Shown in pieces: positions 1 to 6,791 of a stretch of 64,000 nucleotides of DNA. Source of the DNA: Acetobacter estunensis (GTDB taxonomy: Bacteria; Pseudomonadota; Alphaproteobacteria; Acetobacterales; Acetobacteraceae); the NCBI RefSeq assembly GCF_011516945.1, contig NZ_WOTH01000005.1, positions 1-64,000 of the forward strand, given 5' to 3'. The position numbers and the translations under genes were made by a program. Under the pieces are notes generated by a model that searched no databases, was not told the origin of the DNA, and worked only from the letters and a program-made list of their open reading frames with translations. Position 1 is the first letter of the stretch. Each line of letters begins with the position of its first letter.

Positions 1-70
1 CCTCAATCAGAGGTTCCCAGATCGCCCATGTCTCGTCCGTAAAGGTGCCTGTTCTGTCTCCTTCTTCCAT
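1..70 (-). CDS. IS5-family transposase, N-terminal fragment
   Basis: Reading the minus strand from the ATG at 70-68 gives MEEGDRTGTFTDETWAIWEP and a few more residues before the window ends. The segment FTDETWAIWEPLIE matches the N-terminal pattern of IS5-group transposases, and resembles MTDEEWERIAPLMP in the complete copy at 1427. The catalytic DDE domain lies outside the window, so whether the gene is intact cannot be told. Confidence 0.5.
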   Translation of the reverse strand, partial: MEEGDRTGTFTDETWAIWEPLIE

Positions 71-109
71 CCCTACAATATGGGAAGAAATTCAAGATCT
101 AACAGGCCC
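1..109 (-). mobile_element. Partial IS5-family insertion sequence (cut by window edge)
   Basis: The minus strand shows the end of an insertion sequence: a terminal sequence beginning GGGCCTGTTAGATC at 109 and reading leftwards, then a transposase start at 70. The terminus resembles the GAGCCTGTT end of the complete IS5-type element at 1358-2240. The adjacent TAG at 110-112 would fit the TNA target duplication of this family, but the other end is outside the window, so the boundary is inferred. Confidence 0.55.
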
Positions 110-232
110 TAGAACGTGTTTAGGTGGTATTTTTTTCCACCCAGACACTGTGCTGTGCGAAAGACCGATTGCTTTGGCCACTACTACGCAGCCTCCCGCC
201 CGGCGAACTATCTCTCGTGTGTCCATGCATTA

Positions 233-4351: not shown

Positions 4352-4696
4352 ATGCCGCGCTACCATCTCTCGCTGACGCCGATCGACAACGGCCTTTACA
4401 GCGCAATGCTCATGGACACGGCCATGAGATGGCCGATTGGCTTCCGCACTTGTCGCCGCACGCGCATTGAGGGACGAGCCGCCATCGTCGGATCCAGCAC
4501 GGACGGGTTGCCGGGTTGGGAACTGACAGTTCGGCCGACATCTGACGGAATGTTCCAGGCCGATGCAACTGACGGCCGCGACTGGGAAATCCGGTTCCCG
4601 GAATGCGTTCTGGAGCAGGATGGCGCCGGCAAGCGGATCGATGGATGGGCTGAAGAGGCCGAGATAATCGAAGAGAAGAAAGGAGAAGCGGCGTGA
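4352..4696 (+). CDS. Unknown small protein of the element operon
   Basis: A 114-residue soluble protein (MPRYHLSLTPIDNGLYSAML and on) with an acidic C-terminus, WAEEAEIIEEKKGEAA. It begins two bases after the stop of the membrane protein gene, and its TGA overlaps the GTG of the AlpA gene (GTGA at 4693-4696). No domain is recognised. Confidence 0.6.
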   Translation: MPRYHLSLTPIDNGLYSAMLMDTAMRWPIGFRTCRRTRIEGRAAIVGSSTDGLPGWELTVRPTSDGMFQADATDGRDWEIRFPECVLEQDGAGKRIDGWAEEAEIIEEKKGEAA

Positions 4697-4905
4697 TTGA
4701 TCACATGCTCACTCGGCGCGAAGTGGAAAGCCGGATCGGCCTGAGCCGGAGTTCCATCTATCAGCGCCTTAAAGACGGATCATTCCCCCAGCCGGTGCGG
4801 TATGGAAGCCGCACCGTGCGCTGGAAAGAGAGCCAGATCGCTGCATGGCTCAAGGAACAGGAGGATAAATACCTTCGTAAGAACTGTAATCTAGTCGACC
4901 CATAA
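4693..4905 (+). CDS. AlpA-family excisionase-like DNA-binding protein
   Basis: The 70-residue protein is a MerR-like winged helix of the AlpA type: LTRREVESRIGLSRSSIYQR then DGSFPQPVRYGSRTVRWKES and IAAWLKEQ, the full family pattern. AlpA proteins act as recombination directionality factors or activators in P4-like elements and sit near the integrase, as here. GTG 4693 overlaps the previous stop; ATG 4705 is an alternative. It is the last gene of the operon and converges on the AT-rich orphan gene. Confidence 0.88.
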   Translation: MIDHMLTRREVESRIGLSRSSIYQRLKDGSFPQPVRYGSRTVRWKESQIAAWLKEQEDKYLRKNCNLVDP

Positions 4906-4914
4906 AGGGATTGA

Positions 4915-4955
4915 GATGATAGGAGCTACTAAAAAAGTCGATAGTTCCTATCATC
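4915..4955. repeat. 10-bp inverted repeat at the AlpA / AT-rich gene boundary
   Basis: GATGATAGGA at 4915-4924 is repeated inverted as TCCTATCATC at 4946-4955, with a loop containing a run of A (T on the minus strand). It lies between two convergent genes and overlaps the last codons of the AT-rich gene. It may act as a terminator for one or both, or mark the edge of the AT-rich segment. Confidence 0.5.
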
Positions 4956-5516
4956 TGTGCCAGTTTTTTTGACTGGAGCCGATACTTCGTCGAGGATTCG
5001 AAGCCAGTCATCATAAACACTAAGAAGCAGATTGTTTATTTCAGTTATATCTAGGAAATCATTTCCTTCATAAATATGCTCTTCGAGATAAAATCCCTTC
5101 TTTTTGCTCCCAAGTATATTTATAATGCACGGAAGAACACTATCTAAGTCAGGATCTTGACTTAGTACAAATGCCTTTTGGATGCTGAAAACAATCTTTC
5201 TGGTTATGCTGCTGTCGATTCCTGACTGGGACCGAAAGTCAAGAAAGAGAGAAAACGCAACTCCACTTTTAATGCCAATTCTATCATGCCAAAATTTTAT
5301 GTTTTTATCATCTGGAAGCGTTGGCCCGAAAGGCATAGGAAATTCTCTAAATAAAACATTATTTTTTCTTATATAATCAAAAAGAATCCTTCCCTTTATT
5401 ATATTAAATTGCTGAGCTCTTTCAGGGTCTTTTTGTTTCTGACAATCTCTACGAATTTTCTTTTCGATGTTTTCCCATGGAACATCAGGCAAAAGTAAAC
5501 CTAGCTCATTCTTCAC
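4929..5516 (-). CDS. AT-rich orphan protein translated from the integrase stop
   Basis: The 195-residue protein starts at GTG 5516, two bases after the integrase TAA (5519-5521), so it probably relies on coupling, as no Shine-Dalgarno motif is seen. It is soluble, rich in Lys, Asn, Ile and Phe, with no signal peptide or membrane helix. I recognise no family. GC content is clearly far below the neighbours (roughly one third by eye), which indicates recent foreign origin. Its place next to the integrase is a common position for cargo such as defence genes, but nothing in the sequence proves such a role. Confidence 0.65.
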   Translation of the reverse strand: MKNELGLLLPDVPWENIEKKIRRDCQKQKDPERAQQFNIIKGRILFDYIRKNNVLFREFPMPFGPTLPDDKNIKFWHDRIGIKSGVAFSLFLDFRSQSGIDSSITRKIVFSIQKAFVLSQDPDLDSVLPCIINILGSKKKGFYLEEHIYEGNDFLDITEINNLLLSVYDDWLRILDEVSAPVKKTGTDDRNYRLF

Positions 5517-5518
5517 AT

Positions 5519-6541
5519 TTAAAATGTAGCGCGAAAGCCATGAGGCACATGGCGACCATGATACCCGGCTCGGTTGAGCAGATATCCGATTGCATTTTCA
5601 CACAGAGGGACACGCGGACGGCGGCTGTTCGGAAAGAGGTGTGGCCAGCGATCTGAAAACGGGCGAAGGGCCTCAATGACCTCGACAGCAGCCGGCGCCA
5701 GAGGAACGACATGTTCGCGATCCATCTTCATGCGTTCGGCAACGATCACCCAGATAGGCTCCGATCCTGAAAGATCGTGAAACTCGTCCCAACGAGCACC
5801 TCGAACTTCACCTGGGCGCACGGCCGTCAGGTAAAGCAGTCGCATTGCCAGCAGAGTGACGGGATGGGCCGCCATATCTTCGGTCTTCCGGATCATTTCG
5901 CGCGCTTCATCCAGATCAGTGATCGCGGGCTGCCGCCCACGCTTCACCGGTCGCAGTGCCGGCTTCACGACAGCAGCCGGATCGGAATCCGCTCGATCAG
6001 TTGCGATGGCATGCACGAAGATTTCGCTGATGCGCTGCCTGATCCTATGGGCTGTCTCGATCGCTCCACGGTCTTCGACGTGCCTCAGGACATGCAGGAC
6101 AGTGCGAGGCGTGATCTGTGAGGGCGGAAGCTTCCCAATCAGCGGAAAGACATCACGCTCAAGACTGGTGATGACATCATGGGCATGGCGCGGCCGCCAT
6201 AGATCTCGGCGCTGGCCATACCATTCCCGCGCGATAGCTTCGAACACCTCTTCATGGGCTGGGCGCAGTAGCGCAGGAGCGATCTTTTTGTGCGCCACGG
6301 GATCAATACCTTGGCGCTTGATATCCTTGGCTGCATCGCGGGCGCGCCTAGCATCCTGCAGCGACATTGCAGGGTAGGGGGCAAGAGTAAGTGTTTGCTC
6401 TTTGCCTTCAGGAGAGCGGTAACGCATTCGCCAGATCTTGCTTCCAGACGCCATGACGTGGAGAAAAAGACCACCGCTATCTGCCAGACGGTAGGCTTTC
6501 TCGGCGGGTTTGGCCGTCCGGATCTTCGTATCTGTCAGCAT
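5519..6541 (-). pseudogene. P4-type tyrosine integrase, truncated before the catalytic Tyr
   Basis: The 340-residue frame opens with the DUF4102 arm-binding domain of P4-like integrases (MLTDTKIRTAKPAEKAYRLA) and continues through the core-binding domain into the catalytic domain. Arg242 (TAVRPGEVRG), a Lys near 270 and His334-x-x-Arg337 (HGFR) are present. The protein then ends ATF-stop, so the later His/Trp and the Tyr nucleophile, normally about 50-70 residues further on, are missing. Family members are usually near 400 residues. The enzyme should not be able to cleave DNA. The AT-rich gene at 4929-5516 occupies the place of the lost 3' end. The tRNA-Ser target lies 160 bp upstream. Confidence 0.85.
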
Positions 6542-6701: not shown

Positions 6702-6791
6702 TGGCGGATGGGGTGGGATTCGAACCCACGGTACGGTTACCCGCACGCCAGTTTTCAAGACTGGAGCCTTCAACCGCTCGGCCACCCATCC
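6702..6791 (-). tRNA. tRNA-Ser (anticodon UGA)
   Basis: The minus strand from 6791 reads GGATGGGTGGCCGAGCGGTT and folds as a class II tRNA: acceptor GGATGGG pairs with CCCATCC, the anticodon stem CCAGT/ACTGG encloses a loop with TGA, a long variable arm follows, and GGTTCGAATCC forms the T arm. The CCA end is encoded. It is the likely integration target of the element to its left, since tyrosine integrases commonly use the 3' half of Ser tRNAs. Confidence 0.95.

Follow-up and report, generated by a model that had tools for sequence, protein, structure and literature searches.

In the window, the 64,000-nucleotide stretch at the start of an Acetobacter estunensis contig that was analysed here, a truncated integrase gene and the AT-rich open reading frame behind it are probably the scar of a single deletion whose ends fall in a shared ACATTTT, within a prophage or phage-like island integrated at a tRNA-Ser gene (Table 1). 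The truncations of the two genes coincide at one point, and the second gene is a SocB toxin gene; the antitoxin gene socA is missing from the genome, and the intact gene order exists elsewhere. That a single event was responsible, and that short homology guided it, is what this arrangement points to. The pair is decay of known parts and not a new system.

Table 1. Features of the integrase-socB region and its surroundings (window coordinates)
Feature	Position	Strand	Basis or remark
Element gene	4352..4696	(+)	88% DNA identity to a copy in sister genome G007, where it belongs to a separate element
AlpA-type regulator	4693..4905	(+)	Pfam Phage_AlpA, E 2.3e-15; convergent with the socB remnant, on the other side of the cargo slot
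socB 3' part	4929..5525	(-)	SocB similarity from I/L to stop; NCBIfam NF047746, alignment A4
AT-rich ORF from GTG	4929-5516	(-)	195 codons
Integrase gene 5' part, P4/phage-type tyrosine integrase	5519..6541	(-)	340 aa, truncated after HGFRATF; ORF, Pfam, relatives
Join ACATTTT	5521..5527	(-)	Fits integrase and socB; SocB HMM similarity begins here
tRNA-Ser (TGA), presumed attachment site	6702..6791	(-)	ARAGORN; 3' 25-mer exactly once in genome

The integrase product ends in HVPHGFRATF, with the stop codon three residues past HGFR, and Pfam places Arm-DNA-bind_3, Phage_int_M and Phage_integrase domains on it, the last to position 136 of 172 only. Compared with the tyrosine integrase family (PF00589), the arm-binding part, the core-binding part and the first catalytic part with HxxR are present in the window frame, and the second His/Trp and the Tyr, catalytic residues of tyrosine integrases, are missing from it and present in the aligned relatives. 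Full-length Acetobacter relatives extend 67-72 residues beyond the window integrase end, aligning past the HGFRATF point as SST-MNERYPQDH...ELMLAH...AYNRA and running through the catalytic Tyr. Among the 39 matches listed at E <= 1e-60, drawn from 33 of 299 family genomes, the frame is open from stop to stop for at least 400 aa in 36, and for 342 in the window. The Acetobacter integrases at L040, L041, L042 and L045 (71-74% protein identity) and L011 (72%) are 409-412 aa long with the Tyr-bearing end, as is a 58% identical integrase of 407 aa (L014); L012, L013 and L002 were left out of the evidence drawn from this alignment. The earlier claim of an integrase truncated without its Tyr segment is therefore upheld, both by the end of the frame at HGFRATF and by the full-length relatives that carry the remainder, and full-length relatives do occur at the equivalent site in other species, L011 and L014 both lying beside a tRNA-Ser(TGA). 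The window gene resembles the integrases of Acetobacter temperate phages (phiAP1, LC644972; L040, L045, L011) in identity, at 67% in DNA to phiAP1 and 72-74% in protein to Acetobacter relatives, and in lying adjacent to a tRNA-Ser gene, but differs from them in ending before the C-terminal Tyr segment.

Tyrosine recombinases need their Tyr for activity, and the window integrase would be dead; with the Tyr missing, the element should be immobile unless helped in trans. A full-length related integrase with the Tyr segment (G000:C13:12211-13398, 402 aa, 49% identical) lies at a tRNA-Ser(CGA) in the same genome and is the only evident candidate for such help, the 3' end of its tRNA-Ser differing from that of the window tRNA at 2 of 25 bases. 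The missing segment was found in its own genome only inside two other full integrases, the one on C13 (57% identical) and one on C3 (35%), and a displaced 3' piece was accordingly rejected, these matches being parts of the C13 and C3 genes. A frameshift or sequencing error was also rejected: across the aligned relatives the post-join sequence matches SocB and not integrase, and since the join leads straight into socB, no simple frameshift restores the integrase. An assembly or sequencing artefact joining two loci might be suspected in a draft of 120 contigs, but the join lies 5.5 kb inside a 137-kb contig, and the integrase end and the SocB N-terminus are found nowhere else in the genome, other intact integrases excepted, so that this explanation is highly improbable.

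The second frame had been described in the sequence-only reading as a GTG-started, AT-rich orphan gene of 195 residues, two bases past the integrase TAA and without a ribosome binding site of its own. The coordinates agree (TAA at 5521-5519, GTG at 5516-5514, two bases between), as does the GC content of 0.354, with 0.585 in the integrase and 0.618 in the window right of the element, and the 30 bases before the GTG hold no Shine-Dalgarno-like stretch by eye. The gene is, however, not whole in itself, being SocB without its 5' end. The NCBIfam model SocB_toxin (NF047746) matches 12 of 12 aligned members, the window fragment included (E 3.2e-31, profile positions 48-227 of 228, 108.1 bits). SocB similarity begins with ILN, three codons ahead of the GTG, and addition of these codons moves the start of the profile match from 48 to 43 and raises the score to 113.9 bits (+5.8); because the similarity extends upstream in this way, the GTG is an internal Val codon of socB and not a natural start. 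The fragment falls below the curated equivalog cut-off of 210 bits, as expected for a fragment, and intact relatives can also do so (205.7 bits for L010, 183.6 for L048). When aligned with 11 intact proteins (A4), the window copy begins at column 51, and the approximately 48 N-terminal residues that it misses are present in all 11 other rows, intact SocB relatives being 236-256 aa long. With a column counted as conserved when 80% or more of the intact homologs agree in it, 7 of 7 conserved N-terminal columns are missing from the window and 11 of 11 after the join are kept. Judged by sequence comparison, the frame is a remnant of a SocB member and not itself a member. Pfam, PHROGs and PADLOC gave no match in the fragment, tblastn with the fragment gave none in plasmids or phages, tblastn with the intact L009/L010 SocB gave none in plasmids, and a PDB sequence search with the SocB family profile returned 0 matches. 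A C-terminal 'LF' clamp-binding motif (the window frame ends in YRLF) was considered and set aside, L048 and L099 being without LF.

Reviews describe how, in Caulobacter, replication is blocked by SocB, which binds the DnaN sliding clamp, and how SocA hands SocB over to ClpXP (PMC5812544, PMC7566177). The window frame is like this type VI toxin-antitoxin system of Caulobacter crescentus (SocAB; NF047746/NF047745) in aligning with the profile from 43-48 to 227 of 228 and in having relatives paired with SocA/Panacea proteins, and unlike it in lacking the first ~48 codons, in having no SocA in the genome and in scoring under the curated cut-off (108 vs 210 bits). Kurata et al. 2022 (PMC8832971) place SocB in toxin cluster T10 and describe transposases and integrases as common neighbours of TA-like loci. 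The partner genes of SocB relatives carry PF13274, as in PanA-PanT (Panacea/DUF4065) pairs, whereas the window pair is broken and its antitoxin gone.

SocB relatives occur in 4 of 49 genomes of the same genus, the window's own included; the three others encode proteins of 242-247 aa with a 32-36% match to the window fragment, and in each the gene follows one with the SocA/Panacea antitoxin domain PF13274. In wider searches, relatives came from 4 of the 397 genomes at family level, 6 of 385 at class level and 4 of 398 at phylum level (the last at E <= 1e-6), these genome sets overlapping. SocB is a rare toxin family, and the 'orphan' can now be named as one of its remnants. One of the six class matches (L056, from G732; E 4.7e-4, internal stops) was judged from its ORFs to be a chance match. 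A viral contig, L048, also carries a SocB relative. In 10 of the 10 intact loci examined, which came from toxin-directed searches (L048, L057-L064, L130), a SocA/Panacea gene lies directly upstream of socB; these include the weak but paired homolog L061 (G398), which was left out of alignment A4. Both of the SocA partners scanned (L010, L048) exceed the curated NF047745 SocA cut-off. Among antitoxin-directed viral loci, 4 of 33 hold a SocB-type toxin, one of the four being L048, consistent with the known promiscuity of Panacea antitoxins (PMC8832971). The window has no socA directly upstream of and overlapping its socB, and a search for the Panacea domain that was positive in 3 of 14 control genomes found none in its own genome. 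The window thus shows a SocAB module lost in nature, in which antitoxin and toxin head appear to have gone together.

On the minus strand the join is CGC GCT ACA TTT TAA when read in frame with the integrase and CGC TAC ATT TTA AAT GTG when read in frame with socB. Integrase relatives have AC(A/G/C)TT(T/C)T at this point (AC-R-TT-Y-T in short), and socB relatives have GA(A/C/T)(A/G)TTTT(A/G), ATTCTA or ATATTA (socB side ...ATTTTA / ACATATTA), so that ACATTTT is compatible with both parent genes. On L048 the order is intact integrase (268-1482), SocA (1699-2292) and SocB (2240-2956), and removal of 1,066 bp between matching points would yield the same integrase-socB arrangement; as socB is intact directly downstream of an integrase there, loss of the intervening sequence explains both truncations at once. 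An ancestor of the window element would have carried integrase, socA (antitoxin) and socB (toxin) in this order, the latter two occupying the cargo slot that separates integrase from alpA, and one deletion guided by the short homology common to both genes would have taken ~70 codons from the end of the integrase gene, socA in its entirety and ~48 codons from the start of socB. For the window's own lineage this is an order that we infer, since the L048 integrase is 32% identical to the window's and among the 13 distinct intact socAB loci examined, an integrase lies directly upstream in L048 alone (integrase model built from 5 sequences, flanks of 1.5-6 kb). Against the deletion, the shared homology is only 5-7 bases, and against a single event, the 7-mer AATGAGC lies 13 bases past the join point in 5 of 5 aligned Acetobacter integrases and 12 bases past it in the window, allowing a slightly different join or a history of several steps; it was taken as chance or a second possible join, with the conclusion unchanged. 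The window species is represented by one strain.

The sequence-only reading had a foreign segment replacing the 3' end of the integrase, which does not fit an ORF that is a 5'-truncated socB, the intact gene lying directly behind an integrase on L048. In this replacement model, a socB piece that had already lost its 5' end would have been brought in through recombination or an IS and would have taken the place of the integrase 3' end. This would account for an AT-rich piece (GC 0.354) inside a gene of GC 0.585; the island also contains an IS5-type element (1354-2244), and the sister species shows an IS-linked loss of the same integrase. However, both genes would have to be truncated at one and the same base, neither an IS remnant nor an inverted repeat was seen in the sequence at the join, and intact socAB is also AT-rich relative to its surroundings (0.43-0.50), making low GC a family trait for which no foreign replacement is required. 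We regard such an overwriting as unlikely.

The deletion explanation comes with a working idea on viability. In the absence of SocA, SocB should arrest DNA replication, and a cell could survive a deletion of socA only if socB were disarmed by it as well; among such deletions those that also break socB would survive, with the integrase as collateral damage by virtue of being next door to socA-socB. With no SocA in the present cell, an active SocB should harm it, and presumably the truncation disarms SocB or SocB is not made, the core without its N-terminal helices then being harmless or unexpressed. Translation of the fragment by way of the integrase stop is possible, given the two-base spacing from stop to GTG. 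That the 195-codon frame is a functional gene, a SocB core without its N-terminal domain translated by re-initiation, seems decidedly doubtful: the 195 codons are open, the conserved columns after the join are intact (11/11), the stop lies two bases from the GTG and an alpha/beta core is still predicted for the fragment, but every conserved N-terminal column is gone (7/7), there is no ribosome site of its own and no antitoxin in the genome, and an undecayed frame is equally expected of a recent truncation.

A structural model of an intact SocB (L097:4536-5276; mean pLDDT 76.0, pTM 0.77, 5 sequences) assigns helices 8-15, 21-33, 40-43 and 46-50 to the lost part and an alpha/beta core to the kept part, and the window fragment modelled alone keeps this core (mean pLDDT 76.1, pTM 0.70). 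The top structural matches of the SocB model are RecB/Cas4-type PD-(D/E)XK nuclease folds throughout: 9iab by Foldseek (E 2.2e-4, but TM 0.40), and AdnA (Z 9.4, rmsd 5.7, 196 residues) and ACE1 (Z 8.5) by VIA-align. For the window fragment the best Z was 6.6; values below 8 may reflect no more than a common arrangement. A D/E-x-R motif in the family (D in 11 of 12 and R in 12 of 12 aligned) occupies what we take to be the place of D/E-x-K in PD-(D/E)XK nucleases. As a lead only, the models predict a RecB/Cas4-like PD-(D/E)XK nuclease fold for the SocB family, with an invariant D/E-x-R replacing D/E-x-K, which suggests a degenerate nuclease; a literature search listed no paper on such a fold.

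A broader and rather speculative proposal, to which we give little credence, is that a TA module beside an integrase shapes prophage decay, in that toxin-cutting deletions survive antitoxin loss, tend to take the integrase and freeze the element, the truncated SocB perhaps still being made by re-initiation as a toothless clamp-binding core. If this addiction reading were true, deletion end points would tell which parts of SocB toxicity needs, and here the loss of the N-terminal helices would suffice to abolish it; if false, the region represents ordinary prophage decay.

The slot between integrase and alpA, which holds the socB remnant in the window, is ~2.4 kb long in L065 and holds socAB in L048, with an HTH_17 gene beyond, and in L088 integrase and alpA are convergent and ~20 bases apart. 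In the sister genome G007, the tRNA-Ser region (L082:6717-7650) has a 93% match to the window, and ~55 frame-broken integrase codons are left there, ending at IS-like transposase sequence followed by the nuo operon. This is a separate, independent loss of most of the same integrase, and the tRNA-Ser site is decaying by different routes in both species. The G007 relatives of the left part of the window are on a contig other than that of its tRNA-Ser region, and after its copy of the 4352-4696 gene come an HTH gene and an integrase unlike those of the window. In the search for attR, the 25-base tRNA end was found exactly once in the genome, and three sites with 2-3 mismatches all lie on other contigs, one being the C13 tRNA-Ser; the left end of the element was out of reach, the contig beginning at window base 1. 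Window positions 1-112 are a contig-start repeat, found at 88-100% in many genus genomes and at other contig ends, and probably the end of an IS that broke the assembly. The IS5-family element at 1354-2244 lies inside the prophage-like region and shares up to 96% identity with copies on Gluconobacter plasmids. In genome G008, the third gene behind socAB (L010:2090-2788) has a PADLOC TIR effector match (E 2.1e-8) and a weak Nuc_deoxyrib_tr match, and is perhaps a defence gene linked to socAB.
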